From Serpula lacrymans var. lacrymans S7.9 (Eukaryota > Basidiomycota > Agaricomycetes > Boletales > Serpulaceae): a stretch of 64,000 nt of DNA. A program made the translations under genes and the position numbers. Below, piece after piece: positions 38,411-63,090 of the stretch. The DNA lies in the NCBI RefSeq assembly GCF_000218685.1, contig NW_006763308.1:618824-682823 (forward strand), in the 5' to 3' direction. The notes under the pieces were generated by a model that did not search any database, was not told the DNA's origin, and was given only the letters and a program-made list of their open reading frames with translations. Position 1 is the stretch's first letter. Each line of letters begins with the position of its first letter.

Positions 38411-39146
38411 AGGTTCAGACGGTTCAGATGGTTCAGACGGGGCGGTTCAGACGGTTCAGACAGGGCGGTTCAGACGGTTCAGACGGTTCGGACAGGCGGT
38501 TTAGACAGCGGAACGCTCTCCGAGGAGGTTCAGACGGTTCAGACAGGCGGTTCAGACAGGCAAGGTTCAGACCGTTCAGACAGTTCAGACCGCGGAACAC
38601 TCTCCGAGGAGGTTCAGACGGTTCAGACGGGCAAGGTTCAGACGGGCAAGGTTCAGACGGTTCAGACGGTTCAGACGGTTCAGACGGTTCAGACGGTTCA
38701 GACAGACGGTTCAGACGGTTCAGACGGGCAAGGTTCAGACGGTTCAGACAGTTCAGACAGTTCAGACAGGCAAGGTTCAGACGGGCGAGGTTCAGACGGT
38801 TCAGACGGTTCAGACGGACGGTTCAGACAAGCAAGGTTCAGATGGTTCAGATGGTTCAGACGGGCAAGGTTCAGACGGCCAAGGTTCAGACAGCGGAACG
38901 CTCTCCGAGGAGGCTCAGACGGTTCAGACAGTCGGTTTAAACTATTGAACCATCTCCCAGGAGGTTCAGACAATTCCATGGTTCAGACTGTGGAATCCTC
39001 TTTGAGGAGCCTCACAAGGCTCATGGCCAAGGTTTAGACGGTTCAACCAGTCGGTTCAAACTGTGGAACCCTCTCCAAGGAGGTTCGGATGGGTCAGAAA
39101 CACAAGGGTTCAGACCTTTAAGGGTGTTCAGGCGGTTCAGATGGCC
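38411..39146. repeat. 9-bp minisatellite, unit GGTTCAGAC
   Basis: Dozens of near-perfect GGTTCAGAC units. Variants (GGTTCAGAT, GGGCAAGGTTCAGAC, GGGCGGTTCAGAC) recur, and there is a higher-order block of the form GCGGAACGCTCTCCGAGGAG that appears several times. Because nine is a multiple of three, three frames stay open and produce artefactual ORFs of FRR, VQT or GSD repeats on plus and of SEP/LNR repeats on minus. The array carries five of the CTCC-NN-GGAG sites. Confidence 0.95.
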
Positions 39147-39407
39147 ATTTATTACTCCCATGTTTATTTGCCGTTCCTTTGTCATTTTGAGCATAACGTG
39201 CCATAGCAAATATGAACATGCATCTCCTCGGAGTTACCAATTGGTTTGACTTTACCGCTTATTCCTATTCCGGTGTTCAGCCGTTGGTTGTAATTTCAGG
39301 TTACGTTTTTTTACCTGTTCAGTCCAAAGATAAGGTACAGGCATCTATGTCAATGGCTATCGAGTTACAATGTATTTATAATTAAAGTCATGAAACCAGT
39401 ATCCCTA

Positions 39408-40629
39408 TCAAGTACTTAATTTTTTCTTTTGAATTTTACTTAAATCCCAAAGCGTCTCTGCCGCCACAAGAGACATCTCAGCGCACTTAACTCGTGTTGC
39501 GAGGAGTTCTTGGAGGTCCATTTTCTCTATCTCCTCCTTGGACGGTGGGGCCCATGAATCTAATAAAGGTTGAAGTACGCTATACATGGCATGCCCAGAA
39601 GAGCAACCTTACCTTCGGTCCACTGATGCTTTAATAGTGCTTTTCGAGTCTCCGAGGACCTCCAGTAGCAGCGCGCTTGTTTCCTTTGACATGGTATACA
39701 TGACGTTCCCCGCGGATTGTCGAATTCCTTCACACAGCACAGCGGCCCTTCTTTCTTCACATCGCTGAGGCATTCCGCACAGGGTATTACCTATATTGCA
39801 AAGTCAATTCACTCCAGTACGTTACACAAGTGACCACTCACATAAGGAATTGGTTTTGATTGCTTCTTCGGCGTGGTGGTGTCCTTGGAGGGGGTTTCCT
39901 TGGCCTTTCCTTTTCCCTTGGAGGGGGTTTCTGCCTCCGTCTTGCCTTTGTCCTTCAACGGACTTGGGACGTTCTGCGCGTACCTTTTTTTCGTGATCAC
40001 CACTTTCACTTGTCTATATCTCGGCTTGATCCTCTCCGGCTCCTTCTCCCTTTCCTTCCCCTTTGACGAGACTTTCCTGGCCGGGATCCGGATTTGAGGA
40101 GGACCCATTTTCGTCTGTTGCGTGTTTAGGTTAAATAAATTTTACCCGACAGCGAATTTTACTTGCCATTGGTGTTTGTGGTATTTGACCGGGACTCTGT
40201 CGTTGTAGTATTCTCGGTCAGCTTTAAAGGCACTCGTGGCAATTCGTCTTGACTTACCTGATATTTCGCCGTCGGAGGGACCTCTTGCTCCATGTCATCA
40301 TCCTCCTCTTCATCTATGGCGTCGTCCTCCTTTGTTTCCATTTCCCGGACATACTCGACCTTCTTCATAAAGGTCTTGTAGAGAGGCATCTCACGGACCT
40401 TTGGCATGAGAACCTCAGCTTTATCGAACTCCTGTGACAGCAAGCTCTACAAAGGAAGGTTAGTAAATAAATGCCCAGCGTGATTTTCCGCTCACCTCTT
40501 GTTGCCAAAACAGTGCTTTGCCTCGACATCGCTCGGCTTATTTTTTACTGCTTCCACGGTGGTGTCGAACGGGATCGACCTGATAGTTTTGACAATGTCA
40601 GAAAGTTGTTTTTGGAATGCGGAGTTCAT
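39408..40629 (-). CDS. Zn2Cys6-like cysteine-cluster protein with basic/acidic linker
   Basis: Reconstructed from five exons on the minus strand. MNSAFQKQLSDIVK (ATG 40627-40629) runs to NK, spliced to SLLSQEFDKAEVLMPKVREM. An acidic run (DEEEDDDMEQE) follows. A GTAAGTCAAG donor at about 40258 joins in phase to TKMGPPQIRIPARK. Then a long Lys-rich linker (SKGKGKAKETPSK) leads to the cysteine region PCAECLSD…LCC…SCIPCQRKQARCYW, and a helical tail (SWAPPSKEEIEKMDLQELL) ends at 39408. The C-x2-C…C-x2-C-x6-C-x-W pattern recurs in the genes at 43793 and 59726. The pattern resembles Zn2Cys6 DNA-binding clusters. The first exon could start further upstream. Confidence 0.6.
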
Positions 40630-40848
40630 GGTAGTTTTGTTGAAGTGACAGCGAGTAAACCCTTGTCCCGTGGAAGGCTTGTTTGTCGATCGGAATTGGC
40701 CGGCGGCTGTCAAACAGTATTCTTTCCTATCGATCAAATATCAAAAATGGTCTGCTGATAACAATTCTTCTATTTCTGGTCTCACGTGCCGCCTAAACTC
40801 CGGGGAGACTGTAAGCCTGGTCATCTGAGGATCATAACTAATTTATTT

Positions 40849-41402
40849 TTACTTTGAGAACACTTCTATATAACACGTGGTTCCAAATAAACCACTGTTG
40901 CGATGAACATATCGAAAATTAAATGAAACATCCTCTATGTAGTAAACAGCAATCAGACGAATGATTTGGCCTCCCAAATCATTGATGCTCCAGTTTGACA
41001 ATTTTTTTGATAATGCAACAATCCCAGCCAAGTCCTTTTCTGCAAAGGTTGGTCCTCGCTCCACGGAAGAAAAATCCCTTTTCAGTCTCCTAGCACAGCC
41101 AATGTTGACACCATGTTTTCCAAGGAGTTGTAGCTGGTACCCCAGCATTTGCCATGTAGCAAGTATTTTAGCGAACATCTCGACGCCGATTAAAGTCCGT
41201 TCCTCTCCGAGGAGTTTACATACAACATCGGGCACTCCTCAAACGTTTCGTATAACATTATGGTTGCATCCATGTGCTGAACCTTGTTCTCCTTGTAATA
41301 TTCGTACGCCTCGGAGCGCTCCATGTTCTTGCTCAATGTCCTAGTATAAGCTAACCTACATCTTGCTTTTTGACTATGGAACTCGACATGCCATGGGTTC
41401 AT
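40849..41402 (-). CDS. Hypothetical protein, possibly frameshifted
   Basis: Two overlapping minus-strand frames look coding and may be one gene. The first (ATG 41402 downward) contains ATIMLYETFEECP. The second continues from about 41236 as DVVCKLLGEERTLIGVEMF and runs 128 codons to the TGA or TAA at 40849. Inserting one base after EECP would fuse them. The region has two leucine-rich helical segments but no recognised domain. A CTCC-TC-GGAG site (read on this strand as CTC CTC GGA G) lies inside at 41205. No function is proposed. Confidence 0.4.
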
Positions 41403-42875
41403 GAGCGGTTAAAGTTCCATTCCATCTCGTTGTCCTCTTCCGTGCGGCGCGATAGATTTCCTATCCATACCGTGCCGGTAAGGTTGGGCGACTGAACACG
41501 AGTGTAATGACACCAGTATTGCGTGACCCGGAGATTACTGATCACACACACCACACACTGATTAAATTGTCACTCTTTCTACGCAGGCGCTTGTTCGCCG
41601 GTGAGGAGTTGAATTGATATAGTCATTGCCTGAATATTATCCCGGACATATACCGTTAGCTTGACATGTTACGATAACACAATTTCCGGACATCTCCTTT
41701 TATTTCATTCTCCGCTTTAACTCTATACCTTAATTGCCACGCGGCATCTCCCTTTCTCGCGCCGCGTTGCCTTTCTGTTATTTTTAGACTTAACTCTCTC
41801 ACACAGTGGAGCTGGCCATACGGGCTAGGCCCTATGACATCACCAGCCACTGCCTTCATCAACTGTATAGTACACATGTACAAACAAACCTGTAGTAGTA
41901 TATATATCCCAATAGATCCAGGAGACTCCTCAGCGAGTCCTCCTGTTGTATACCAACTAACTCACTGCAGCCCAAGGGGTACCCACTCCCCATCTTCCAT
42001 TACCTTTATAGTGTGTTCCTGTGTGCGCCAGAGTAACTAACTCTTGGTTGTTACATGACATCCCATGTCCCTTTCTTGTACAGATATCTTTCAGCGGTTC
42101 TCGTAACGTATTATTGTTTTGTTCATTTTTCAGACATTTCAACTTGTTCTAAAATCTCCATTCATCGGGCGAGTATATCATTTAACCCCACGATTTGGAA
42201 TGAGACATTTACTTATTCTGTAGTTTACATGGGACGGACGTGAGAAGCCTTATTGATCAACAGCATTTCCCTCGCTCTAATGTGGCCATCATAATTGGCT
42301 ATTATCTTCACCAGATCTCTCCTCTTTGCGTCCCACACAGAGTAGGCCTCTTCGCATTCCTTCGAAAGCGTTTCAATTTCCTCCCTGTTCCGACTTATTC
42401 TCTCTTTCTACTCTTCCAATTGTGAGTCCGAGGTTCCCTGGAATTGGGGAAAAGAAAGATCGCTTGGCAACGATAGTACCAAAGGACTCTGAGGAGCGCC
42501 TGGCGAGACAGTGAGATGACGCACGGAGGAACTCGAAGTCTCCCTTGCATTAGAGTGCGACGTTTCAAGGGGTGAGTAGAAATCTCGAGAAGAAGTCGCA
42601 AAGGATTACTTTTGAAGTCATGTACTTTCCGGATCTCATCTCTTGTAGGATTGTATATGTCTTACAAGCTCGTAAATACCCATTGATATACCTTTTGTTC
42701 GGAAATAGTATAACCGAGTCAATTCGTTTTCACACGAATACGCCCACCCTAAACCTTGTCGCTCCGGTTACGATTACAACTCGAGGTTGGTGAACTCCTC
42801 GCAGTTATGTAGAGAAGCAAAAGTACAATACAAAAACGAATCAAATTAGCAGTTTAGTCAATGAGTTACATGCAA
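41403..42875. other. 1.5-kb stretch without a recognised gene
   Basis: Only short ORFs are found on both strands; there are no splice-linked blocks and no exact CTCC-NN-GGAG. It may be UTR, decayed element sequence or promoter space. Confidence 0.4.
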
Positions 42876-43473
42876 TCATTTTTCTCTGTCCATGAGTCCA
42901 TAATACATCAAAACCGCCTCCGTCCTGAACTGTAGTATTGTCCATCTGTCATACTCTAATTCAGCCGCTCGGTTTTCACTGAAAACATAATGGTCTAGTT
43001 TATGTTCATTCAGGACCTCCCAAGCTTGTCGTAGTTGGTCTTCCTCGGAATGCTCCTCGGAGTCTTCTTCAATTGCGTTTGCCGGAATGTCTTCCTGGAG
43101 TGGAACGGGCATACGATCTATGTGATGTCGATGTCAGGAACACAGGTAAAAGCCTTTAGAGGGATACTAACCTTCCTGGCTCCTTTCTGCCCATCTCAAA
43201 GATTCTGAGATTGCGTTGATCACCCAAATTCCTTCGTTACACTGAACGCAGTTGCTTGCGGTCGCTTCTTCCTGCATGCCAACAGATGGGTTGGTAGTAG
43301 TGTCATCTTTTACATGGTCTACCCACCAGCAAGGAACGAAGTTTTTCTGTATATTCGATGAAGCTGACACCGCCCCTGTACTCATGCTCTTCAGGGACCA
43401 CATTATCTTTGTAGAGCTTCTCCAAGGCTTTACTGAACCTTTTGGCTTGGCGTTTGGCTTCTGTCAGTGTCAT
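42876..43473 (-). CDS. Hypothetical acidic element protein
   Basis: Three exons join on the minus strand. MTLTEAKRQAKRFSKALEKL (ATG 43471-43473) runs to EKLRSLL. An intron ends at CATGCAG, giving EEATASNCVQCNEGIWVI and ESLRWAERSQEG. A second intron leads to PVPLQEDIPANAIEEDSEEH and a C-terminal helix ending GLMDREK at TAA 42876. Junctions are GT-AG and in phase. A single C-x2-C pair occurs, which is too little for a metal site alone. The CTCC-TC-GGAG at 43053 falls in the acidic SEEHSEED part (TCC GAG GAG codons). The family is not recognised. Position between two Zn2Cys6-like genes suggests it belongs to the same element. Confidence 0.52.
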
Positions 43474-43792
43474 TAGTTGGAGTTAGAGTCCAAATCATCA
43501 TTGACCACTTTGTGGAATCCGTTGTGTAATCACGTGGCCGCCACAGCATGGGAACGTTCGAGTAGCCACCATGAACTGTCATTCCTCTCTGACTGAGTAG
43601 TTATCTATTGTTTCGCCATGCCTGATACGTCCACCTACTTGAATTGCCTCAGCGAGTTTGTCGGTAGTAGCCAGGGTGAAATCCGATCCGAGCAACATTG
43701 ACATTTTGAAGGATTTCGGGAAGCAGCAGGCAAGTCATATCTGACCGCCATATTTCATAGTCGACGACAGGTTGATATGTAGCATTATGGTC

Positions 43793-44430
43793 TAACGCTT
43801 TATGACCATCTGCAAGACGTTCCGGGGATACACGGCTCCCCGGAGCACACAAAATTTTTGGCTCAAATAGTGGACGTCATCAATGTCTTATCGGCATCAG
43901 GCATGCAATATGCCTACGACGTCTCCGCGGACAAAATCGCTATTCCAGGCAGCAGCTTAGGCCGTGCTATGGTAAGTGAATCGCTCAATGAAATTGTTGT
44001 CATGATAATGATGGATATCTAGGATCCGGAAACCAATGGTGAGGAGTCCGAGGCGGAGGACGACGACGACGATATTTTATTTGTTCTAATGGTGTGTATT
44101 GACGTTGCTCCAAGGAGTGAGCATTGCACGATGACATGTTTGTAGGTAGAGCCATGTCGGCGATGCACATCTTTGCGCAAGACCTGCAAGTTTCTGGTCT
44201 CCACGGAGTCGGCCTTTTGTCACACAAAGATGTGCTATTTTTGCAGTCGGGCTGGCAAACACTGCATATGGGATGGGGAGGCTCGAGCATATGGATCTAG
44301 GAACATTTAAGGTCAAACATCCTCGGACCTCGACTCTGCAATCACAAAATATGAGCTCAAACAACTTGCGATATTGCAGTCGTTGTCAGATCTAAATGAA
44401 CGCTTGGAAGCTATGCAGCGTAACCAGTAG
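43793..44430 (+). pseudogene. Zn2Cys6-like cysteine-cluster protein, interrupted by a stop
   Basis: Exons seen: from about 43793 (LTLYDHLQDVPGIHG, then FLAQIVDVINVLSASG) to 43971, a middle exon beginning at 44023 that is very acidic (ESEAEDDDDD), and a third from 44146. The third carries PCRRCTSLRKTCKF and CYFCSRAGKHCIW, an almost textbook Cx2Cx6C–linker–Cx2Cx6C array like fungal Zn2Cys6 DNA-binding domains. In frame after RAYGSRNI there is a TAA at 44308-44310. The same frame continues with a coiled coil (SDLDSAITKYELKQLAIL … LNERLEAMQRNQ) to TAG 44428-44430, as in dimerising Zn2Cys6 factors. The 5' end is unresolved: an ATG at 43618 starts a frame that closes before joining. It may be a decayed gene or be rescued by splicing I cannot see. 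Confidence 0.55.
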
Positions 44431-45097
44431 CTACCAATCCTTCCATTGTAATCAAGTGTAGTAATTCAGTTTAGTGTTACTCATCCAGGGATGGCGGGCT
44501 TCGTTTTAAAATTGAAAGTTGTTTTTTTAGTACAGCGCTCGTAACAGACTTTAGCATCGTTCCGTTGACCCTGCAAGATCTTTTGCACACAGCGATCCGC
44601 AACTCGTGATCCGCTTCCCTTAATCCACAATCGGGCGATCCGTTCTCACGGCACCGAACCCAACAATGTAGCACGGAACCCAATGCGTCTACGATAGACC
44701 TTACTTTCTTGTTTTTGTTTGACTGATAGTTGGTACGCGTTTGCAGTAACATCTTGTATCATATGGGATGCTACCTGAAAGTAGGACTCGTTTCGACTCC
44801 ACGGACATGATGATGCACTGTTTACAGTACTCTGGATTCTCGGTCATCTGAAACCGTTCCGCTTTTCTCGCAAGAATGGAAACGAAATTATTTGCATGAT
44901 CACTACATTCATTTTTCATTTTTCCCCAAGAAATAGGTAATGGTGCTCGGCGCGGCCGAAATACCGAGCAGCACTTTGCGATCAGTAAAACATTACAGCG
45001 TTGTTTTTTTTCAAGTATAAATACCGTCTCTGACCGTTCAACGTTTTTCTTCAACTTTTCAAAGTTAAACCTCATTACATACCATATACTTTTTAAC
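44431..45097. other. Upstream region of the helicase gene
   Basis: Spacer with no supported gene; a 193-codon minus-strand ORF overlapping the helicase start is a shadow. It contains the TATA-like box listed separately. Confidence 0.5.
45016..45023 (+). promoter_or_regulatory. TATA-like box of the OrsD-RecQ helicase gene
   Basis: TATAAATA 75-82 bp before the ATG at 45098, a sensible distance for a short 5' leader. Inferred from sequence and position only. Confidence 0.5.
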
Positions 45098-48000
45098 ATG
45101 CCTCTAACACCAGATGTTTCTATCTGCCCCAAATGCGAGGGCAAAAACAGTCGTGACCACCAGTGGGATCGACATAGCAAAACCGCATTGATTGAATGTT
45201 CCTTCGGAATTTTCAAGATTGAGCGTACGTTTGACACCCTCATGTGTCCCATCCGAGGGTGCAACGAGGAGAGGGAGCGCATCAGGACAATGCGAAAGCA
45301 TCTGTCGGTCGCCCATGGAGCTTTGACCGATAATTCTGACCACTCGCCCGCTGGTATGTCTTTTTTCTTATTGTTCGGAGCCTTCTCTTGACAAGCTTCA
45401 AAGTTGTAGCTCTGCGCGCAGACGACACTCGTACTTCCGTTGTTGGGACCGTTTTACGACAGGGGAAAGTTGTCAAGAAAGGTAAGGCAGTAGGCGTGAT
45501 GGGCACGTATGCGCGATCTCACTGTTGACCTAGGTTTAGCAGTAGGACAAAGCGTTGCAGATGAGTCGGAAGACGTTGCTGCAGAAGGTATGTCACACCT
45601 CCTTTGTGCGTTACACAACAAAAGGGCTAAGTGACTTGCATTCAGAACAAAACTTGGAGCTCGTCAACTCTGACGACGAAAAATCCATCCTCGGAGATCC
45701 TGAGTATCACTCTAGTGCGAATTTCTTCGAAGACACCATTAAAAGTAAGTTAGGGAGTTGCTACTTTGTATCGCAGTCCATAACATACTTCATAGAACTA
45801 GAGCATAGGAAGCGTGCAAAAGTCGCACAAGGTCCACAAAACGCCTCCGAGGAGTTGGACGATGAGGTCTCTCAGTTGCTTACGGAGGCTCAGGCAATTC
45901 CTGATCCAGACACCAACGGTGTGTATCTCTACCATCGTTTTATCTTCCTTGAAACGAGCTTAGAAATATCGGAATGTTTCCTTTTCATAGAGCAAGGCCA
46001 CTTGATCTTCGTACCTGGCCTTTCTTATCTGGTCTCTAACAACCTGCTGAGGTCGTGTGGCCTCAGGTACCATGTAGGTTTGAGAATACTAATATGCTTA
46101 GATTGCAAGTTTGGCGTCTTGGCAAAGGACGCTCACTCGCACCTTAGCTACAGTCATCACCTCGAGGTAGACAAGGATAACATCTTGGAGGCATTACGCC
46201 CGCTGCAGCCTATCGACGACGCCCACGACATGCCCTTCATCGCTCCTAACGGTCCTCCTCTGGAAATCATTCCAGTGGTGGACGGCTATCAGTGCACTCT
46301 GCAGTGCACCTTTTGCTCCTTTAAAAAGGGTACCTGTGAAAGGCACGTCTACCATCATCCGAGGGAGCAGAGGAACTCAGGGATCGACAACTTGAGAAAC
46401 GCTCGGGTTCAGACGGTGTTCCAAGGCAGGAACCGCAAATATTTTGCAATCAACGAGGCGCTTGCATCGCCTTTGTCCGAGGAGTTGCCCTTGGAAGAGA
46501 TACTTCGTAATTACGAGTCTATCTTCAATATGGTCGGGCCTTCGTCTCCGAATACGCTGAGGGAGGTCCCTCCTCTTTTGCAAATCACCCAGTGGCATGT
46601 ATTACTGCGGGAATACGTGGAAGATGAAGAGAAGCGCAAACAGCTTATGACCATCATGGGCCTGGAAGAACCCGAATGCCAGTTTGCTTACACGCACATG
46701 CGCAAGGCCAGCATCAAGTACTTGAACGAAGCCGCGAATAGGGTCAGGCAAGGTGGTCTAGGCATCCGTTGCCTAATAAAGCACGGCCCAAATGTGTAAG
46801 CCATTTCCTTTCATCGTCATAAGTCCAGTTTCCTCACCCTTGTTCGCACAGATCGTCTACGAACACAGACCACTTCCATACTCTTCTCACTGATTCCAGT
46901 GTCGACACGTACACCGAGGTGTTGGCTTCATACATCACATTTCTTTTCAGGACGTATACTGGATTCGGTGACCAAGCTATTGCCCTTCCTACCAATCCCC
47001 AGCAAGAGGACATGATTTCGGAATTCATACATTCACTCAAAAATCAGGCCGAAGAAGTTCCATTTCCACATGATATACTATTCAGCATGATGGGTCCCAA
47101 CGACTCCGCAGAGGAAGGTGACACATTCCAGTGTCCGCTGCTCAGGTATATTGCCTTGGGATCTCTGAAGGCAGACGGCACATTCATAGAGGCAGAGTGG
47201 TTAACAGGCAAGTTGGCCAAATGGAAGTATATCATTAAATGCTGCGTGGTGATGCAGTCCGATCTGCACAAAGAGGAATCTACGTTCCGCAGGTAAGTCT
47301 GTTGTTTCTCGCTTTTTGCAAAACTACTCTAATCCCCGATAACGATCCAGGGAGATATTGGCTAACTACGACACCCACTTGAGCATCGGAAGCGGGTGTC
47401 CCTTCAATTTCATATCGGAACTCCAGTCGGCGGCTTCTTCAATCGCCAAATTGACTGTACACATTCCCCAAGTGTTTTGGGACGAACAATTTACCAAGCT
47501 ATCGATCTCCGGGGAGGTCCTGTACATGTCGAAATTACGCTCCGGGTTGCAGGAAATGATGCAAACCGCATCCTACATTATGAAGGAGCTTACCGAAGGG
47601 GTGAAGTATCTCACCCGCCTCCCAGAGGACGTCAAGGACAACTTTGCAAACAAGGATTATGGCTTCTTGTGGTTGTCCGGAGGTCCCTTTACGGACCGCC
47701 CTCAACCCCTTGTGACTGACGTGCTGCAAAGCACAAAGTGGAACCTTTGCAGGAAGGACAACGCCGGCCGAATTTGTTGGAATATACCCACCGCTTGCTC
47801 CATCCTATCAAAATGTGCCATGCTAAATGAGGTATTGTCTGTCCTTAATCACATAGTACCCTCTCAGCCTTGCAGAGGCACAGAATGGGTAGATATGAAG
47901 ATACGGAATTCGATGAGGACACAAAATCATTACAATTTGATGTCGAGCATGTACTGGATTGTCCGGTACACGAAGATAACCAGCATTCTAGGTCACAACA

Positions 48001-51000: not shown

Positions 51001-52207
51001 ACCTGTTCCAAGGTTCCATGCTGATCAGGTCTCTTCTCCACCGTCTTCCTCTCCCTTGCGCCATGTCCTCAAGTCCAAACACAGCAATAAACCTTTGATC
51101 TCCTCGCCCCTTGCCAAGGTCTCCGTGGAGCAGTCCGCTAGACAAGCCGCTCGTGAGTGTCGTTTTGAAGATGTAGGAAAATCTTCCCCCCTCTTGTCCT
51201 TATGTTTCAAGGGTACTCCAAAAGCGCAAAGTCGTCCTGACGCCAATCCCTCGGGGTCTGTGTCCTCCCGACAAATACCGGTTTCTTTCGACGTTCCTAA
51301 GCAAGCCGCTATGTCAGAAAAAGCAAAAGGCAAGCAAAAGGCCATGAATGTGGTTCCTGTAATTTCTAGTCCGACAATAGCTCTTCTTGCTCCGACCAGG
51401 CCAACCAATGTCCATGTCGCCCCTCCCCAGATCCATCCCAGCGTGTTTGACACTCCCCGTCCTATGAGCGTCCCCACAACCCCCAAAGCTGCTCGACTCC
51501 AGGGGTTCCAATCCGCTCGCTCGCTCCTCAGTGACGCCCCGGAACCGTCCAACGCAAGGCCCCGCCAAGGAACCAATCCGATGTCCCCTGGTTTACCAAT
51601 TAAAGCAAACACCGCTCAACGGGATGCGGCAACCTTGCGTCAACACAATACTATCCGTGACCTCCATACGATCATGGAGATCACAGAAGGGTCTTGCGCC
51701 GTGTGTTGGACTTTGACTGGTGCCCTCATCCGCGGACACAACCCGCCCTTCAAGTGGTGTCAAAATGCACTCCCCGAGGACTGCAACTACCGTTTCGGCT
51801 GGCTTAACGTAAAGAAGTCGCACAAGCTGCCCCGAGGACGCTATTGTTTCTTTTGCGGTGTGCCTACCTCTTGGGGAGGCACCGAAGAACCCATCTGTCA
51901 CAAGAATTGGCGCATGGAAAATAGCATGTCGCCACCAAAGTCATCTCAAAACTCCGGATCCCCCCCAGCGAACCTGTGCATTTGCCCTTGGTCGGACTTC
52001 TTGTGGATCTCTATATGGATCATTTACAAGGACCCAACGTTCCGTACCGCTCTGGATCACTTTGGAATTTCCGATTTCTCAGAGGAGCAGTTTTCAGCTT
52101 GGGTGTTCGAGGAAGATCTCAGTGCAGGCGAATATTATAAAGGGTTGGAGCTTTTCGTTTGGTTTTACAAAATTTTCCGTATTCCTGATACCATCACATT
52201 TCAATGA
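45098..52207 (+). CDS. Composite C2H2/OrsD-domain and RecQ-like helicase protein
   Basis: A 7.1-kb gene whose exons can be read in one continuous phase from ATG 45098 to TGA 52207, over 2000 residues. Parts in order: zinc-finger-like CPKC and CPIRGC…HLSVAHG; acidic linker; OrsD-type region with CLDCKFGVL…HL and CTFCSFKKGTCERHVYHH; a long conserved middle including PCRGTEW and LNMEYFVVVRPLEVFL, seen in this repetitive mushroom gene family; an acidic Ser-rich linker with a KKKSR patch; then a RecQ-like helicase core. The core motif I is degenerate (KCGAGKAS, Ala for the Ser/Thr after GK), motif II is DEYH, motif III MTATAPP and motif VI QGSGRGYR. A C-terminal Cys/His region (CAVCWTL … CNYRFGW … YCFFCGV) closes the protein. 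Such genes are often subtelomeric or mobile. It carries seven CTCC-NN-GGAG sites. Confidence 0.78.
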
Positions 52208-52451
52208 ACTATTTTTTTTTCTCTACACATCAGGTCATTTGCGACGCAACGGACGTTTATTTCACTATTGACAATACACATGTACAACACCAGAGACATC
52301 TCCTTATTTCACCATTCCCATACGCAAATTAGCTCATTTTCATAACTGTTGTCCTTACCCCACTCACTCGTATTTATTTTGCAATCACCACGTACTTATC
52401 ATTTTTATGTCCCTCGACTCAGCATGACCTTGTATTCTATCATCATCGTTG
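52208..52451. other. 3' flank of the helicase gene
   Basis: AT-rich, with no gene. Ends at the TGTTGGAAAAATCCA word that may be a transposon terminus. Confidence 0.4.
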
Positions 52452-52466
52452 TGTTGGAAAAATCCA
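52452..52466 (+). repeat. Candidate transposon end TGTTGGAAAAATCCA
   Basis: Matches 60238-60252 in 14 of 15 positions in the same orientation. Each lies shortly after the end of a CTCC-NN-GGAG-rich block and before a motif-free stretch. No inverted partner was found, so the terminus role is a guess. Confidence 0.4.
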
Positions 52467-52514
52467 ATTCACCTGATCAGGACTGCTGGAGCATGCTGCG
52501 AGTACGGTGTCGCC

Positions 52515-52700
52515 TGACGACCTTATGAGGGAGCTGGAGTATCAGGTAAGGTATGAGCGGGCCCTATAAAATCATAGTGCAAATGAAAAGCCTATCATCA
52601 TGTCTTATGAGACCTTACAAGGGGAATAGAGGACGTGATAAGATGTGATCAAGCTCTATAAAATCGCAGCGAAAAATGAAAAGGCGTCATCACACCTTGT
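52515..52700. repeat. Two diverged copies of a ~90-bp unit
   Basis: Blocks around CTATAAAATC…AAATGAAAAG recur at about 52564 and 52655, each preceded by similar CCTTA(T/C)…GGG sequence. This looks like the subterminal repeats of a DNA transposon. It lies between the candidate end and the Plavaka remnant. Confidence 0.45.
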
Positions 52701-53590
52701 TTAAGAACTAAGAAGTCCTCGAAGGCTTGGGTGTTTTCGCACTCGTTTTGTTACATTCCCCTTGTCGAGCCAGAGGGAGACCGGGAGAAAGCAGTGTGGG
52801 ATGTCGTCTTTGGGAAGCTGATCCTGGAAGAACGTAAGTGAAGTACTGTATAATACATAGAAACGCACCTGTATATCCCACCATCTATTACCAGTGCTAA
52901 ACTCATCATATATTTGAGTCTTGAGAGTGACCCGGCCATTGCGCCTACAAAAGAATTTCTTACACGGATACCAGAATATCATGGATGATAAGCTGGCATC
53001 CATGATCCAGTCACAATATACTTCCCAGGAATCGCGATACACAAAACTGAAATGAAATGTCTCACCCAAATAAACGGCTGAGACATTCCCCTCTCGAAAC
53101 TGTAATGAAAACATTAGACCAGACTTGAGTTTAAAGTTTTGGCTCACCTGAGGACATAGTTTCCGTGCTTTTTTCAATGAATGTTCTAGATTGACGTGGC
53201 TTTGCAGTGTGATTGCCGTTTCACGTGCCCATCCACCGTGTATACCACGTAACTGTGTGTTGATGATGTCCTTGCTAAATAATCCTTTTACAGTGGTTTC
53301 TGCATACTCAAAGTCTGCACGAGTTCGGAACGGAGCCCATGGTTTGCTGTTGATGCCACGGACATTGAAAGTACTGTAGGTTGTTGGTGTATCTAGTGAG
53401 ATAATGGTTGGTTCCTTAATGCCGGTGTGAGGGTGTGGTATGACTTGAATAAAGCTTGAGGGACGTTCATTGTGCACCTCAGAGTCTAAGTCCAGCGAAG
53501 ATTCCTGGTGCGATGGTTCTGCTTCGTCAATTTGTGCCTGATTTTCTCCATAAGCAGTTTTGTTGAATGTAAAGTCGGGACTGGACTATG
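52701..53590 (-). pseudogene. Plavaka-type transposase fragment
   Basis: Minus-strand reading shows SSFIQVIPHPHTG, PWAPFRTRADFEYAETTVK, ITLQSHVNLEHSLKKARKLC, YRDSWEVYCDWIMDAS, FWYPCKKFFCRRNG, YDEFSTGNRWWDIQ, then HCFLPVSLWLDKGNVTKRVR. This is the N-terminal-to-middle order of Plavaka transposases (CACTA-related elements of Agaricomycetes). At least two introns are spliced to get this. The usual N-terminal zinc finger is missing beyond about 53590. The protein stops at 52701 where intact copies continue with the catalytic core, so the gene is truncated at both ends. Diverged tandem repeats follow at once at the 3' side. Confidence 0.68.
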
Positions 53591-54092
53591 GGAAACAGTG
53601 TAGTATTAGTATAAGAAATGGGAAGGCACTCAGTACCGTAGCAACCACATGCATAAACAAACATGGAGATATTATTTGCTTACATTTGAGTCTAGTTTGC
53701 GCCATTTTTGAGGCACAGGTAAGTCATCCTGTGGGCGCGATTTATTGACTTGAAAGGATGGAGCTGTTGCAAGCTCATTATGATGACGTTTGCAGGCTTC
53801 CACATGTTTATCAAATTGACGAGAGCTTCAAAAACTGTTGCAGTATTAGCACCAAGGGCCCTGGCAAAGCTTCTTTGTCCTAGTAGATGAGCGCATGTTG
53901 ATGGATTTGAGTGAGCTTGAGCTGATTCTACTAATTGCAGTTGATAATGGAGAACAACCATATCTTTGACGGCATCCTACGTCATGTTAGATTGTCGGAC
54001 TTGAAAACTACCTACACACCATCAACAGTTTTCCTAACTGCGAGTAACTCAAACCCTCAATATTGTCCTTCTTTTTAAATTCACAGCCTACA
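53591..54092. other. Region between Plavaka remnant and next gene
   Basis: An 89-codon minus-strand ORF (53692-53961) reads ACARALGANTATVF-like sequence of unknown meaning and could be an exon of the same remnant. Nothing else was recognised. Confidence 0.3.
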
Positions 54093-55548
54093 ATGGAAAA
54101 AAACCGTAAAAGAGAACGACGAAGGGTGCCTACAAACAGAGGGAGTGATCAGAGCAGAGACCATGTCCAAGAGACGGACTTACATCATGGAGCACAGCCA
54201 ATGCAAGACTGGGGCAGGGATGATTCGACTTTGAGCGATACTCGAGGACAGAATGCTCAAGTCAGTGAAGACCATGCCATGAGACATGAAGCAGACACAC
54301 CTGAATTACATGGTGATCTGAGTGTCAATCAGACAATGTCCCCACGAATGCTTTATAAGGTACACTGATGTTAATCTGGGAAGATTAGCAAAATATACTG
54401 ACTCACCTAATGTCAGGTTGCTCGAGAAGCTCAGATAGCGGTCAATTTGGCCAGAGAGGAAACAAGGATTTTGCGGCGAAATACGACGATTTGCTGAACG
54501 AGACTGAAGACCCTGAAATCTTGAGTCAGCAAGGTCCCCCCAAAAAGCAAGAGCTTATGGACGTCGGCAGTGAGCTACAAAGAAAAATCAAACATACCAA
54601 GCAGCTGGGGCAAAAGTTCCTTGTGACGTCCATGCTATGGATACATGACCCAGTAAATACATTCAAGACAACTCGTGACGATCAATATAGTCCACTGGGC
54701 CGGTTTGAAAACATTGAGCAAAAGATACAAGGTCAGATTAGTGAGATATACGCAAACACACCTCGTGAACTTGTTGGGATGATTGGGCAGGATTGGTTTG
54801 TATCTGCTGTGAGTAGAGTCTTTTCATTCCTACCACGCCTCCTTGAACTGAGCGTATGAAAATGAGTTCCGCGACGGGATGCAGGCCCAGCGGTCAAATG
54901 GTGCAAGCCGTCTTCGTGCATGCGGCAACACTATCTTTGATTGTTCAGCGGCCGATTTGAAGACATCTGAGGCGAGGCAAAATAAATTTCTCAATAAAAT
55001 TGGGTGGAGGATGAACAGCAAAGGACACTCAGCTTTCAGCCTATGGAACGTTGAGGTCCTCCATGCTGATTATTCTGGGAAGTTCGATGTGAATAAAGTC
55101 TTCCTTAACCCGCTCTTGAAAGTGGTAAGTGTCTTCCTGTCAAAATCAGATTTATTGTAGCTGAGAAACTCCAAGATTCTATCCTGTGTCATTCGAGGAC
55201 CCGGCTCAATTGTGGCGATGAAAAAGGGGATGCCTTATGAGGGCGCGCGAAGTACCGAAACTCTGGACGTTAAATGGGGCCTCCAGCACACCACACCAGG
55301 CATGGTTGCATGCGCCGCTATTTTGGTAAGTAAAATGCCTAACCCAACACTAATTATTACTGAATTTCCCTTAGGCACGATGGGTGCTCTCCCCTGATAG
55401 TATCCTGAAAGAGAGGGGAGCTCAGTCCGGCATTAATTGGCATGAAGATTGCGACAATTACCTTGAATATCTCAAAATTGGGCTGGGAAACAGGAAAGGG
55501 AGTGTACTCACTATCTTCCGCAATGTCGATGATGAGAACTGCAGTTAG
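54093..55548 (+). CDS. Agaricomycete repetitive-family protein of unknown function
   Basis: A hydrophilic N-terminus (MEKNRKRERRRVPTNRG, two-exon) leads into a helix (VAREAQIAVNLAREETRIL) whose frame soon stops. A second frame from about 54420 carries the body: DVGSELQRKIKHTKQLGQKF, TPRELVGMIGQDW, spliced to FLNKIGWRMNSKG, VFLNPLLKV, LRNSKILSCVIRGP, KWGLQHTTPGMVACAAIL, ARWVLSPDSILKERG and NYLEYLKIGLGNRKG, ending 55548. The C-terminal part resembles a widespread uncharacterised family that accompanies Plavaka-type elements in mushroom genomes. The join near 54420-54500 is uncertain: either an unusual intron or a frameshift. No exact CTCC-NN-GGAG occurs here, unlike the genes on either side. 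Confidence 0.55.
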
Positions 55549-56490
55549 AAAACCACACACAAAAACAAACTAACAAACAATCCTCCCAGATTCCACGGAA
55601 CTTGTTTATGGGCTTTGCCTCCTAGAACAGTGGGTGCTCTGGTTGTTCGTGGGGTGGTATGTATGAAAGGTCCTTCAAAGTAAAACCCAGAGAGGTATGG
55701 GTGTGGGTTTTGAGGAGGAGGGATAGTTGAATTTATAGAAGGATAGGGGCTTTGTGACGAGTATAGACGAGCACTACCTTGCTAATCGTAGCACAAGGTA
55801 GGTTTGAGAATGACAAAGATGACAAGGTGACGAGGTTCCCAGTGATAGCAGGCTCCTGACGCACAAACTGTAGTGCTCAGAAGGACTCTAATCAAAAGGG
55901 ATGACAGTGACTTTCAAAATGACGAGTGACGATGACAGCAGATGGCAGTGGTAACAGTGGGAAGTATTGTGACCACACTGGATCACAAGTAGCAGAGTAG
56001 TGAACTTGAGATTTAGAGAAGAAGTCTGGAATCGAGTTCCTTGTTTTTTTTACAAGGTAAAATACAGGGGTTTATATAGTGAAAAGAAAGACAGGCTATG
56101 CACAGTATAGCTGCGCAAAAAGAATGAGAAAGAACATGAAGGAAGGAATGTACGCTGACGAATCCTGCGTAGTTGCTACAGGATAAGATCATCAAAATAA
56201 GGGAAAGAAAGGGATAGAACAATGAATGCTGTGAGTAAAGTTACAGGTTTGTACAGCCATAAAGTAAAGTCCAATAGCAAAAAGAGAGCAAGAAAATCAT
56301 GATGTCATGGGAAGATGCAGTAAAAAAAAGGCAAGGAAAAACACTATCAGTATCAACACAGTTCCTTTATTGTCAGTCAGGCATTCTAAAAAAATATGTG
56401 TCCATAAAAATGATTCAAAAATCAAAAATAATCGCACTGCAAATGAACGTTCTGCTGAAAAAAAAGAAACTGGAGCCACCGGTCCACCAC
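55549..56490. other. Spacer of about 0.9 kb
   Basis: Purine-rich with AAAG/GAAAG stretches and short unsupported ORFs. No gene is called. Confidence 0.4.
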
Positions 56491-57033
56491 CTAGTCCAAA
56501 TCCGACAGTTCCATGGCCTTACCAATGGACTGGTTGTGTTGGACCACCTGATCAAACGAGGGAGGGAGAGGAGTAGTTCCAATTTGGAACAAGTGAGTCC
56601 CAGGCAGCGTGTGGTAGGTGTAGCTGTAGCGAAGACGATGGACATAGGATAAGTGTACCCAAGTGAATGGGACAGCGATGAACATGGGCGACGCAAGGGG
56701 ATGAACCTTCTCCAGCTCAAAAACTACCCACCCACGCTCCAACCAGGCGAGACGAGTGACCGGTGTTTTGATAGTATGTGATGGCAGATCGACGTCATGA
56801 AGATGGACCTGTTGCCCTATTTGGACCGGCCGCCGGGGCTTTGCTGATATCAGCAGTGGCACGTGGTAGTCAACGGATCGGCGACGGAAGCGGATAGGAA
56901 GTGGTGACATCAGAAATGGTGGGGGTGCAAATAATATGAGGAGGAGGAGGGTGGAGGTGACGAACAAGTGGATTAGAATGGGGATCCAGAAACGACCGTC
57001 GGGTGAGAATATAAAGGAGAGGAAGGGGCCCAT
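56491..57033 (-). CDS. Small predicted membrane protein (left copy of inverted pair)
   Basis: ATG at 57031-57033 starts MGPFLSFIFSPDGRFW, followed by one strong transmembrane helix (IPILIHLFVTSTLLLLILF), a basic RFRRRS and about 120 residues of mixed sequence (SPMFIAVPFTWVHLSYV, LPGTHLFQIGTTPLPPSF) ending ELSDLD at 56491. The family is not recognised. The frame is open upstream to 57228, but only through TTG. The identical start recurs on plus at 63652 inside the inverted duplication, with coordinates matching base for base. Product role unknown. Confidence 0.55.
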   Translation of the reverse strand: MGPFLSFIFSPDGRFWIPILIHLFVTSTLLLLILFAPPPFLMSPLPIRFRRRSVDYHVPLLISAKPRRPVQIGQQVHLHDVDLPSHTIKTPVTRLAWLERGWVVFELEKVHPLASPMFIAVPFTWVHLSYVHRLRYSYTYHTLPGTHLFQIGTTPLPPSFDQVVQHNQSIGKAMELSDLD

Positions 57034-57344
57034 GGTGGGGCTAGGCAAAGGAAGGGGAGTAAGGGAAACGACAAAAGCTAGGGCGCAATGCAATGTGTAG
57101 CCAGTGGCGACGCAAAAATTTGCCGAAATGCCGAAACACGGAAAGTACCGGATGGAAAAGTAAAGGTGAGCGTGACTGGATTGCCTAATAGAGGTGGTGC
57201 TGATCAGCCACAAGTTCAAAACAGGCAATATTAATCACCATTCCACGTGGCACTGTGCCTGTGTGGCGCAAAGGCGAGTCTTTTCGAATATTCGCTTCGT
57301 TATTGACACCTGTCCATGCTACCAATCAATTTTGGTGCATGACA
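56685..57344 (+). repeat. Inverted duplication, left copy
   Basis: Reverse complement of 63341-64000. End points and internal landmarks (57033/63652; the GCATGACA edge at 57344/63341) fit a one-to-one relation with no indel over 660 bp, and all stretches I compared are identical. The right copy is cut by the window edge, so the true repeat may be longer. The spacer is 5996 bp. Confidence 0.9.
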
Positions 57345-57621
57345 TCGTTCTTATTCACGTCGTACACTTCATCAGCTGGTGTTGTAGTATATATTGTTTT
57401 CGTGAACATCCGTTATGTTACTCATACTGTGGTTGATATCGCCTGAATATATAATGGATTGCTATACACGTTGCTTTCTACAAGCTCTCCTTGGAGGTTG
57501 ACTACCTTGAAACATTTGCTACGCCTTGATATGGACAAACAAGATTCAAAAAACCACTGTATTGTTACAAAACCGCTTTACAAACATGATTAATAATAAA
57601 TATATGAAAGGTTATACAACA
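57345..57621. other. Spacer between inverted repeat and kinase gene
   Basis: Holds CTCC-TT-GGAG at 57487, in non-coding sequence, the first motif after a 6.4-kb gap. No gene. Confidence 0.45.
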
Positions 57622-59562
57622 CTATAATAAATGTTCGCCAAGTTGTGTTTCAAGGTCCAATATTTCGAGACAATCTCCATCACACCGATGACTATTTTCC
57701 CCCAAGCCAAAATCGACAATAGTCAGCTTACCTTTGTCGTCCTGGACAACGTTCCTCGGAGCCAGGTCGTTGTGACAGACCCGGAGGGCATGGATCTGCC
57801 TCACGCTTTTAAGTAAAGCTTGACTGCAACATTCACGTTAGTTGAGGAATAATTCCATACTGAAGTTCAAAGCTTACCTTTGGATGTCATCCAACTGTTT
57901 GAATGATTTCAGTCGGACTCCGCAATCGCTGGTAACTAAAATCTGCGTGGACTTATCCACGCGGAAAAGCCCGATGCACTTCGGTATCAGGACTCCCTGG
58001 AGAGAAGACAGGACCGAATAGAGATAGAACTCTCGTATGAGCGACTGCTCGGAGTTTTCATCGTCCACAACCATCTTGATAAAAACGTTCTCTCCCTCAA
58101 ACTGACCTTTGTACAAGGCCGACAATCCCAGCTTCTCCGAGAACAACGCAAGGGCATACAGAGGCTTTTGTCTGCACGGGTACCGATGGGGCGACATTGC
58201 AGTCAACTTCAAAGTAAGAGTATGAATTCCTTTTGCGCCAAACACGATCTCCCCGGGAACCGATGGTAGAGCTTTCTCTAGCATCTTCTTCGTCACCGAT
58301 CTCAGCGTCATGGGGTGACTGGAAGGCTATATAACAGATATCAGCGTGATTGAGGTTATAGGTAGTAAACAATACTGACCAATGCGCTAGGCTCCGGGGA
58401 GCCCTTGTTGCTACCAGGTGCGTTGACCTTTACCTTGGCATCAATTGCCGGAGGAGCAGCTTGTGGTTTAAAGGGTCCCGAAAGACTTGGGAGATGGGTG
58501 TCTAGGGCGTGGGCGAGAAAGAGCGACGCTTTGGCGAATGCTAGTTTCGTCTCTTCTGGGTCGCCTTCGTAATGCCATTGCAATGGTTCTGATACCCATA
58601 CCGTGTTCTCTTCTCTCAAAGTCATGATAAACTGCTCCTCATTGCTGAAGATCTGGTGGGTGACGGCGAAGTGAAGGCTCTGGTGCCAAGTCTGATGAAA
58701 TAAGCTCAGCGAGAATGTACTGATACATGCGAACGATGAGGCGTACCTGATAAAACATTGAAGAAGCTTTCTTCTTCCAATCACCTTGGGCCCTATCGAC
58801 GTCCCGTATGAGCACGAACTCGAGATGCTGCTTCAGGTATGAGTCCAGCTCATCCAATAAAACCACATTCCGCTTCATATCAGAGCTTTTTGAGGTACAC
58901 GTGTAGGAAGGTTTCAGCTCGACCAAAAGGACTCCTCGGAGACCATTGCTGGCTTCGGAAGGATCAACTGCTGGGTATTCGAATACTCTATCCGCGCGGC
59001 CAGATGGACCGGTGGTGGGGGTGTGGATGAACATATTGCAAGGCCCAGCAGGTATGGCTTTGTCGTTGTAGTGCGCCGCGAGGTAGAGTAACTCCCCGGT
59101 GAATTTGAGGCGTTCCCAAACATAATAATCCGTATAGATACCGACATCTCCTTCGCAAGTAATGAGTCCGGTACGTAGAGGTTTTGGGTTTACTTCATGA
59201 AATTTGTGCGTCGTGTCAATGCTGGGACCCGTAGAGCTGAGAATGCCTCGAGCCCAATCCAAATTGAAATTGTTATTGCCACGCAAACAAAGCTTGGAGA
59301 GGTCTCTATACTTTACACTCTTTAGCGTTCCGGCGGAAGCCTTCTCTATAACAGTAGCATCGTGCAAGGTATGTGAGGAATGACGGCTGGTCTTTGGCGG
59401 CGCGGGAATACCATGGGCATGAGAAGCCAAGAACGACAAATCACGTCCGTGCACCGTGCTGCTGTAAGTCCAAAACGAAGAAGGCCCGCGGGTGAGAGCT
59501 GCGTAAATCTGGTCTCCGTCTCCATTGCCTTGTGACATATTGGCGGCTTTGAAGTCGAACAT
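57622..59562 (-). CDS. REase-like nuclease domain fused to a short protein kinase domain
   Basis: ATG at 59560-59562 (MFDFKAANMSQ). The N-terminal half has the layout of PD-(D/E)XK nucleases: GRADRVFEYP (Asp), then GVLLVELKPSY (the E-x-K), then after a 54-nt intron (58692-58745) FYQTWHQSLHFAVTHQIFS and SEPLQWHYEGD. The second half, after an intron at 58326-58379, is kinase-like: FIKMVVDD (VAIK-type Lys), LIREFYLYSVL (helix C Glu), then across a short intron VCHNDLAPRNVV and IVDFGLGE. The protein ends 25 residues later, so the C-lobe is very short, as in other fungal kinases of this sort. REase-kinase fusions are described among Crinkler-type and transposon-related proteins. Four CTCC-NN-GGAG sites lie in or near it. 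Biological target unknown. Confidence 0.68.
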
Positions 59563-59725
59563 TTTCAATAACGCCCATATCTTTTATATACTGCTGTGGA
59601 TGTGGATGACGTAAGCATCGCAATGATGATTGATTTCTTGGACAGGACGTGCTGTTCGTCCCCTTTGTAAGTGTATTTGTGAAAGCTGGGAAATTTGAAT
59701 TACGGGGCAATGAACTAAACTCTAG

Positions 59726-60105
59726 GCTGTCCCATGCAATGCATGCCGAATCACTCCGGGGAACATAAAATGCATGCGAGAGGTCTCCACGGAGACGACT
59801 CTGTCCAAGCATACGAGTTGCTCGATGTGCGAAAAACGGGGAACCCGTTGCTTTTGGAATAAAGAAGACATAGATGCGAACTTGAAGGCAGCTCGGGAAG
59901 AATCGGGTGGGTTAAGAAAAGTCGATGCGTTTCGCAATCTGATGGAGTTGGTTTAAACGTTGCAGAAAAAATGGTCGATCCGATGAGACTTCTCAAGAAT
60001 CACACGGACGAAGAGCTGGAAGATGCGATTCATCTCTATACAAAGTTAGTGTCCGATCTCTCAGCAACTGACTCGATGCTCTCCAAGGCAATAAAAAGTT
60101 TGTGA
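59726..60105 (+). pseudogene. Zn2Cys6-like cysteine-cluster protein, 3' part out of frame
   Basis: After an acceptor CTCTAG the frame reads PCNACRITPGNIKCMREVSTE … SCSMCEKRGTRCFWNKEDID, the same six-Cys array and trailing CxW as the 43793 gene, including the homologous VSTE codons that contain CTCC-AC-GGAG in both. It then stops at 59956 (MELV). One base over, a helical segment continues (LLKNHTDEELEDAIHLYTKL, then SATDSMLSKAIKSL) to TGA 60103-60105, resembling the C-terminal helix of such proteins. So either a frameshift or an unrecognised small intron separates the two. It is divergent from the REase-kinase gene, 163 bp from its start. Confidence 0.5.
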
Positions 60106-60237
60106 GGTTGTGACCTAACATTATGCATGTAAAATACAAAGACGCGAGGAATGACGGCTAGGATTCAAGTCTCTCTCCACAGAGAAAGTTAATAGAAGAG
60201 AGGAAATAATATTTTTGTTCCTAGAATGCTTTATACA

Positions 60238-60252
60238 TGTCGGAAAAATCCA
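60238..60252 (+). repeat. Candidate transposon end TGTCGGAAAAATCCA
   Basis: Differs at one base from 52452-52466 and has the same orientation. It starts about 130 bp after the last block B gene. Confidence 0.4.
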
Positions 60253-60438
60253 TTTTCCCATACAAGGTCTAGAATGGCCACTTCAGGTCGTTAGATTTTA
60301 GGTAGCCTTAAAAGAATCAAAACGTTGCAACAATGCCTTGTAAGTCATGATCAAAATTACGCCCTAGTAAGACCAACCATCATTAGATACCTAGTCTCAT
60401 TTATGAGACCATATATGACATGTGCGACAGACCACTCA

Positions 60439-60510
60439 AACCAGTCCAATCAGCGCAACCAGTGCAACCAGCGTGACCAGTATGACCAGCGCGACCAGCA
60501 CAACCAGGCA
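60439..60510. repeat. 9-bp tandem repeat, eight units (AACCAGCGC-like)
   Basis: Eight units aligned on (A/G)A(C/T)CAG followed by three variable bases. It is a diverged minisatellite; no gene function is evident. Confidence 0.75.
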
Positions 60511-61311
60511 GATAGCAACAGGCCAGACAGGCTTGGTCTAGCAGCTTCCTTGTTAGTGCTGATAATTCATCTCAGCCGGATCATGGCTAATATTATCTCG
60601 ATCATGACTGAAGTGCCATCATTAGTATCTTTACAGTTTGGCTGACTCGGATATCCCCAAATCACACAAACGAAAGGCATGGAAATTAAGTAAAAAAGTC
60701 AGGTTATATTTATCAATCAGGAGGACACTACAAGTATACAACTACAACTGTAAGGTAACAGCAAAAATGTAGAAGCACTTAGTTAAAACAAAAATCAATT
60801 TGTGACAATTGTCGTCAAAAATGACTTGTTCCTTGTGAGTTCTGGTCCTGACAGAAATCTGGAAATTGAGGCATGTGAATGTGAGGTAATGAAAAGAGAA
60901 ACAAAATGCTTACCATAATAATATTGATACCACAAGCGCGAAGGCAGCCCCAGTTGTTGATGACCAAACGACACTACAAGCAAGATCCTGTCAATTGAAA
61001 TGTGTGAAATCAAATCCAAATGTCTACAGTATTGATGATTGATATTACTCACTGCATTGAGTACAAGAAGGGTTGGATGGCTGGGACTTGGAGTGGTATT
61101 CATTGATGTGGTAGAGTCTTCTCAATGAGTTCTGTAGTTGACTGAGGAGGAGATGGAGATAATACAGCAACACGATGGCAACAACGGACCTTTATAAATG
61201 CAATGTAGTGGCGTGTGGATTAATCGACGTCATATTACTAGAGCATACTTGAATCTAATTTATTGCCGAAACTCACTGTATCCACATTTCTCGTTGACTC
61301 CTACCTACAAG
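60511..61311. other. Spacer, nothing recognised
   Basis: AT-rich, short unsupported ORFs on both strands. Confidence 0.4.
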
Positions 61312-62317: not shown

Positions 62318-62479
62318 AGAATGTATACTGTCCTTGTCTGTCAATATATGAATACTATCAGAAATCCTACCGAGTTTTATTTGAACCTGGGATTTAGTGT
62401 GTTTTATATCACTCTGAATCAACATTCGACGACAACATGTATTGAAAGATCAAAAACTCTGTTGCTAAGTTAGATTGGG

Positions 62480-63090
62480 TCTGGGTTACAGTTGTCTATT
62501 CTTATCATTCCCATCGGAGCTGAGCATGTGGACAGAAATAATTTAAATAATATACTGATATTGTCTAATTACATTGTCAATGACAATAGGGACCCGGGAG
62601 TTGGTCTGAATTACAATGCCTCAGGACTCTTCTGACGGGTTCAGTATCATCTTCCCCATGATTGAGCTCTCCTAGACGAATTGCTGAGCAACGTAGATCT
62701 GACAGAGAATAGTTGTCGTCACTTACCCATTTGATCCATACATGCTTGTGCCGCATGACCAGAGTCCAGATTCAGATCGATGAAAGTTAAGCTTCTTGTT
62801 GTGATAAGCATAGGCTGCTCAAAAGTCAATTACTTCGTTCTGGGCACTGGTCTATTCTTATCATTCTTATTGTCGTCAGCCTGATCATGTGCACACAGAA
62901 ATGATTCACATAGATATTGCATAATTACAGGAGGACGGGGGGGAGCGAGCTTCCAGGCTAAGTTAACTGTGGACTAATGGCTCTTCTGATGGGTTCAGTA
63001 TCATTCACCCCACGACTGAGCTCTCCCTAGACAAATTGGTGAGCAACATAGACCCGACAGAGAATTACCATTGACATCACTTACCAATCA
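62480..63090. repeat. Diverged tandem duplication, ~360-bp period
   Basis: Blocks TCTATTCTTATCATTC, ACTCTTCTGA(C/T)GGGTTCAGTATCAT and GACAGAGAAT…CACTTACC occur in the same order at about 62494-62730 and 62851-63085. No gene was recognised across it. Confidence 0.65.

Follow-up and report, generated by a model that had tools for sequence, protein, structure and literature searches.

The element in the window and its ten-base word

The window analyzed here comprises the terminal 64,000 bases of contig C19 (682,823 bp) in the 42.6-Mb genome of the basidiomycete Serpula lacrymans var. lacrymans S7.9. It contains a repeated element composed of a minisatellite, a probable multi-exon gene for an OrsD domain with a helicase-like region after it, and a kinase-like gene, and this element is strewn with the palindromic word CTCC-NN-GGAG, whose arms enclose a free 2-bp centre (Table 1). 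By direct scan, the window holds 24 exact sites, all within 38,518–59,794 and none elsewhere, whereas 100 dinucleotide shuffles of the window gave a mean of 0.81 sites and at most 4. The dense exact copies described in the initial annotation were thus found again, although its count of 23 had to be raised by one and its site at 47517 in reality begins at 47507; the confinement of the sites to 38.5–51.1 and 57.4–59.8 kb and the number of ten different central dinucleotides agreed with our scan. If up to one mismatch is allowed, 66 sites are present in the window versus 21 expected. When the minisatellite and its tail are left out, 19 sites remain in 16,038 bp, where 0.36 would be expected at the background rate, which was drawn from 18 of twenty 10-kb stretches sampled at preset genome positions.

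The spacing of the two arms is strict. In the site-bearing DNA (38,400–52,210 and 57,348–60,200), CTCC is followed by GGAG 24 times at a gap of 2 and only twice at gaps of 0, 1, and 3–12 together. The outermost base is altered in 15 of the 25 one-mismatch forms of this DNA, and we therefore regard TCC-NN-GGA as the core of the word, with C preferred outside; with both halves pooled, the outer mismatch is most often G (8 of the 25). None of the 24 centres is self-complementary; the probability of this is about 0.003 given the dinucleotide composition and about 0.03 given the bases found after any CTCC in the element.

Ten of the 24 sites lie inside assigned exons of the OrsD-helicase gene and the kinase-like gene, the exon ends having been chosen by eye. 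When synonymous codons were exchanged at random inside each exon, so that the protein and the codon usage stayed the same, 1000 runs gave a mean of 0.62 sites and a maximum of 3. Codon choice as an explanation of the coding sites is ruled out by these synonymous shuffles and by shuffles of codon order, as the initial annotation had argued from codon use. Its statement that the sites occupy three codon registers is correct in that all three occur, but overstated, as their use is uneven and seven of the ten sites read C/TCC/NNG/GAG, two CTC/CNN/GGA/G, and one CT/CCN/NGG/AG (slashes mark codon borders). Of the 14 sites outside assigned exons, the minisatellite with its tail holds five. Density, strict gap, and codon shuffles together support the earlier proposal that selection at the DNA level acts on this palindrome and leaves its 2-bp centre free.

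Table 1. Features of the window that carry, interrupt, or border the CTCC-NN-GGAG sites (positions are those of the window).
Feature	Position	Strand	Remarks
All exact CTCC-NN-GGAG sites	38518..59794		24 sites, from the first base of the first to the last base of the last
GGTTCAGAC minisatellite and degenerate tail	38412..39150	+	5 sites: 38518, 38602, 38903, 38954, 39073
Left part of the site-bearing element	39150..41666		sites 39224, 40798, 41205; copies on C2, C22 (part), and C13 (part)
390-bp multicopy insertion	41667..42056		site-free; missing from the C2 and C13 copies
Middle part of the element	42057..45545		sites 43053, 43836, 44108, 44199
C2H2-like pattern	45245..45316	+	in a frame just upstream of the OrsD exon; pattern match alone
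Multi-exon gene (probable), OrsD then helicase-like region	45546..52204	+	exon ends by eye; 7 exon sites: 45845, 47507, 48161, 49009, 50071, 50776, 51121
Inserted DNA	52300..57347		site-free; left limit approximate
Right part of the site-bearing DNA, kinase-like gene	57348..60236	-	sites 57487, 57993, 58392, 58932, 59785
Transposon-like repeat	60237..62500		site-free; 99% copies elsewhere; right limit of the site-bearing DNA

The OrsD domain of the multi-exon gene scores 48.3 bits (cut-off 26.6), and the two helicase domains, DEAD with 22.7 (cut-off 26) and Helicase_C with 18.3 (cut-off 23.5), both stay below their cut-offs. A second copy of this gene was not found by DNA or protein search of the genome, and one other OrsD domain of the genome lies on C11. 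Comparison of the helicase part with viral contigs gave five pattern matches, none of them a relative. The Zn2Cys6-like proteins mentioned in the initial annotation did not reappear: a simple scan of the three forward frames of 44.0–52.3 kb gave no Zn2Cys6 pattern and found C2H2-like patterns instead. Besides the one upstream of the OrsD exon, these lie at 46095 and 46293 inside this exon and, in another frame, at 44,572. The kinase-like reading, made by eye, covers 57874–59583 on the minus strand, and its part at 57.9–58.3 kb had no Pfam match at E 0.05 and no Protein Data Bank (PDB) match at E 1.

Inserted transposon DNA explains most of the site-free interval of 51.1–57.4 kb and comprises a weak Plavaka-transposase match on the minus strand (52701–53585, below the Pfam cut-off) and a repeated transposon at 55524–57347. 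The latter and 63338–64000 are inverted copies of one transposon, 99.8% identical over 663 bp, the second being cut by the contig end. As for the 390-bp insertion, copies of about 96% identity occur throughout the genome (40 of 51 matches listed, 4 partial; 1772 first-look candidates with the whole query). Eight same-strand pairs of this repeat are spaced by about 5.86 kb, and because of this paired spacing a solo long terminal repeat (LTR) is likelier than a miniature inverted-repeat transposable element; the insertion is probably the solo LTR of another, 6-kb retrotransposon. Other Pfam matches in the window were MYND and, below the cut-off, DUF4470, which together with the weak Plavaka match suggest a basidiomycete source.

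Partial copies of the element were found on several contigs. The left part recurs at C2:63,132–68,891, in pieces of 69–87% identity that are colinear with 38,373–44,662 of the window, and also at C22:73,636–75,810 (96%) and C13:882,552–885,349 (94–97%). The right part recurs at C2:3,546,080 as a fragment with stops (95–96%, 1.5 kb from the contig end) and at C1:47,375 (82%), and C14:44,003 encodes a protein of 44% identity; two short matches, at C14:50,813 (134 bases) and C11:1,342,917 (49 bases), were disregarded. Six of the seven places of the element, the window included, are at most 76 kb from a contig end, and the seventh, on C13, is interior to a contig of at least 1.39 Mb. The window contains no tandem TTAGGG, and contig ends are thus not equated with telomeres.

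The word across the genome and in a Ty1/copia family

The initial annotation regarded the word as the mark of one element, a view that the genome-wide counts overturn. CTCC-NN-GGAG occurs 4189 times in the genome, whereas its reversed form, used as the control word, occurs 378 times, and the same arms at a gap of 3 (CTCCNNNGGAG) occur 612 times against 296 for the corresponding reversed control; the composition of the genome therefore does not explain the excess. With the centre limited to G or C, the counts are 82 versus 46, and among the 82 are four sites in the window, two in its C2 copy, and two in a copia copy on C4. Pairs of sites spaced by 20–21 bp are found 1148 times, and never for the control. 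The twenty sampled stretches contain 20 sites (reversed word: 4), of which 16 belong to one element seen in two of the stretches, L034 and L035. The remaining 18 stretches have no listed similarity to the part of this element that carries the sites, and four sites occur in their 179 kb. Arrays of sites are also present along the interior of C1, and of the first 100 listed sites (C1:0–693 kb), ten are isolated by more than 5 kb, with 6.1 sites expected at the control rate. In the samples read, the frequency of sites in the remainder of the genome thus equals or slightly exceeds the background.

The element in L034 and L035 is of the Ty1/copia type. On the minus strand it has, in this order, Pol_BBD, an integrase with an SH3-like domain, and a reverse-transcriptase fragment, and the integrase thus precedes the reverse transcriptase as in Ty1/copia elements. 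Pol_BBD, SH3_retrovirus, and rve (33.1 versus 32.6) exceed their Pfam cut-offs, and the RVT_2 fragment falls below its own. The LTR is about 343 bp long and has 740 first-look candidates in the genome, of which 40 were scored and matched. One copy, L024, is flanked on both sides by TAGAA, by eye an apparent target duplication, and none is evident at another, L030. All eight aligned LTRs hold two to four exact sites, which are 20 or 21 bp apart where adjacent units are intact, and in L024 the array starts 104 bp and ends 32 bp before a TATAAG box. Further sites lie in gag (copy L052) and in pol, and some of the 1148 closely spaced pairs are presumably located in the internal region of the copia element, outside the LTRs. 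Judged from C1 and the samples rather than from a copy-by-copy count, many of the 4189 sites, and probably most, belong to this family.

Codon choice does not account for the sites in two copies of the copia family either. Eight coding sites in L035 compare with a shuffle mean of 1.0 (maximum 4), and six in L034 with a mean of 0.94 (maximum 5); these two results are not independent, because both are copies of one family (94% identical). The copia coding sites occupy all three registers. The 17 kb made up of two other copia-type elements, one each in the L034 and L035 stretches, and of the window at 52,300–57,347 and 60,237–64,000 contain no site.

The word also emerged from a scan for gapped 4+4 words that one copia copy and the window element, with minisatellite and insertions removed, have in common; the window outside 38.35–60.24 kb and 17 of the 20 stretches (without L034, L035, and the repeat-rich L046) served as background. 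Among the 15 best of these words, 14 are CTCC..GGAG itself or coincide with it in part, including one variant at the outer base, and the exception is CCTC.......AATC with 4 + 2 copies. The 10 kb of L046 have other symmetric words, GGGA-N3-TCCC 46 times, TGGG-N5-CCCA 43 times, and GGAT-N-ATCC 32 times, probably from one tandem repeat. Between the site-bearing parts of the window element and the copia element, no similarity was found, and each has therefore probably gained the word on its own. The same lack of similarity led us to reject an origin of the window sites from copia, the one match being 38 bp in the inserted 390-bp repeat, outside the copia LTR.

Copies of both elements differ in their sites. 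In the copia family, LTR copies vary by 20–21-bp units that carry sites, and pol copies vary by a 21-bp tandem unit (L034) and a unit of about 36 bp (L001), each adding one site; such differences can be gains or losses alike, and many other sites lie outside tandem units. For the window element, the C2 copy examined as L053 (85% identical) retains the site at 40,798, and a site listed at C2:68,418, CTCCCCGGAG, arithmetically corresponds to 43,836 and lies in a piece of 79% identity. In the C1 copy (82% identical), the site at 57,487 is retained within a run of identical bases. From window 40672–41358 to L053, C-to-T and G-to-A changes number 34 and the opposite changes 14, as repeat-induced mutation or decay of methylated cytosine would give.

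A putative dimeric protein and the elements it may serve

How can one short word have become dense in two unrelated elements? Its strict spacing, its symmetry, the free centre, and the tolerance of the outer base point to a dimeric DNA-binding protein, and a dimer-binding site is, of the uses considered in the initial annotation, the one that best fits the sequence. With moderate confidence, and by analogy to the VANC proteins of Arabidopsis, we propose that the word is the site of a dimeric protein that promotes the expression of the elements themselves, by activation and/or by open chromatin. A sequence-specific protein would contact CTCC-NN-GGAG as a symmetric dimer with the half-site GGA(G) and a fixed 2-bp gap, and the Ty1/copia family and the OrsD-helicase/kinase-like element would each accumulate sites. 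The bound protein would activate transcription and/or keep the chromatin open against silencing, and one protein may serve both types of element. Two candidate binders are equally possible, the OrsD protein with its C2H2-like patterns or a host factor. The place of the phased array, just 5' of the TATA-like box, suggests that it activates transcription from the LTR. Sites within coding exons hint at an action along the entire element, and the action of VANC on VANDAL transposons offers the nearest known logic for this.

Several known systems share aspects of this arrangement. Zn2Cys6 dimers such as NIT4, NirA, and yeast Pdr1/3 bind symmetric sites of the TCC..GGA type near fungal promoters; in these sites the centre is constrained, whereas in the word described here it is free. 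In the gypsy retrotransposon, an array of sites for the host protein Su(Hw) forms an insulator in the leader. The copia array likewise lies inside an LTR retrotransposon, but it is upstream of the TATA-like box and continues through gag and pol. The closest parallel is VANC/VANDAL: according to the available portions of the two reports, the motif YAGTATTAY is dense in a single transposon family and seldom occurs in other transposons, has accumulated via tandem repeats, and serves as an address for element activity (PMC5735166; PMC10398659). Our elements resemble this system, as far as these portions describe it, in that a short word is, in the samples read, dense in particular transposon families whose copies differ by site-bearing tandem units. 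The VANC motif is non-palindromic in the same portions and has a known VANC protein, whereas our word is a palindrome with a free centre and a putative binder.

The gene content has a parallel of its own. RecQ-like and OrsD genes that are repeated near chromosome ends are described, in the accessible parts of the reports, for Agaricus (PMC7473861) and Ustilago (PMC10532341), and the element studied here may be comparable, with its OrsD domain, its helicase-like region below the Pfam cut-offs, and its repeated DNA mostly near contig ends. It differs from the accounts in these parts in that OrsD and helicase-like regions belong to one probable gene that was found once, and in that one partial copy of the element, on C13, is interior. 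The same parts of both reports mention no dispersed DNA word. A search for the exact word CTCCNNGGAG gave no match in the open-access literature, most subscription journals being outside that search. A search for related motifs gave mostly apparent primer matches, as judged from the listing, and among the literature matches listed no title describes the word. The accessible part of PMC12730594 contains nothing that bears on it.

A number of observations weigh against a VANC-like function of the word. Since the gap-3 form is also twice as frequent as its reversed control, the genome-wide excess is not all specific for a gap of 2. The copia LTR sites that were examined mostly have the centres AT and TA, whereas no window centre is self-complementary, and the reading of the two sets of sites may therefore differ. 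In the available part of PMC5735166, VANC motifs are specific to a family and largely non-coding, whereas here many sites are coding (10 of 24 in the window, 8 + 6 in the copia copies) and the word is common to two unrelated elements. In L053, the window site at 41,205 is lost by a C-to-T change, and at another place a one-mismatch form of the window corresponds to an exact site in this copy. Conservation of the arms receives no support: in three of four comparisons the arms diverge no less than the rest, with 11/56 versus 215/1507 and 10/56 versus 227/1598 in two L001 pairs, in both of which a tandem duplication misaligns the sites, and 4/40 versus 53/619 between the window and L053. The fourth pair (1/64 versus 111/2573) is too small to decide.

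One alternative would be a plain enhancer, a host transcription factor site that the copia LTR and the OrsD element recruited separately, with no function against silencing. The helically phased LTR array just upstream of the TATA-like box would be expected of such a site, and fungal Zn2Cys6 factors such as NIT4, NirA, and Pdr1 bind sites of comparable form. However, few host targets are apparent in the samples (4 sites in 179 kb, and the 10 isolated among the first 100 against 6.1 expected), and the spread of sites throughout gag, pol, and the helicase exons is unusual for enhancers, so that we consider this explanation rather unlikely. It is improbable that the word is a tag by which a host defence or structural protein silences, anchors, or replicates repeats, for instance as a seed of subtelomeres or heterochromatin. 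Several copies of the window element near contig ends would fit such a role, as would the subtelomeric RecQ and OrsD genes of Agaricus and Ustilago in the accessible parts of PMC7473861 and PMC10532341. Elements would, however, be expected to lose rather than gain a silencing tag, and arrays are also found inside C1, with contig ends not equated with telomeres.

At the level of RNA, the palindrome permits a 3-bp stem or RNA dimers, and sites in gag and pol could thus give hairpins or dimerizing loops for the packaging of retroelement RNA. We regard this as very unlikely, as sites are also present in the minisatellite and in apparent spacers of a non-retroviral element, and as the commonest outer mismatch, G, breaks the pair and does not make a G-U pair. 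The strand-exchange sites and the Chi- or uptake-like dispersed words envisaged by the initial annotation, and likewise integration-target sites, have in their favour the symmetric arms, the free centre, and the helicase-like gene of the element, but deserve hardly any weight, since centres vary freely, the symmetric word gives no orientation, the window frames given to Pfam had no recombinase match, and the sampled rest of the genome is near background density.

We thus favour a VANC-like protein that promotes the expression of the elements carrying its site. A stronger version of this proposal, which we offer only tentatively, is a fungal transposon "address code", in which a dedicated protein, perhaps the OrsD protein, would read CTCC-NN-GGAG and keep unrelated classes of elements open against silencing, and the copia family would have been selected to write the word into its LTRs and even into its coding sequence. 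If true, a protein-recognition word would be common to unrelated classes of fungal transposons and able to override codon choice, and S. lacrymans would provide an independent case of sequence-specific self-protection of transposons outside plants.

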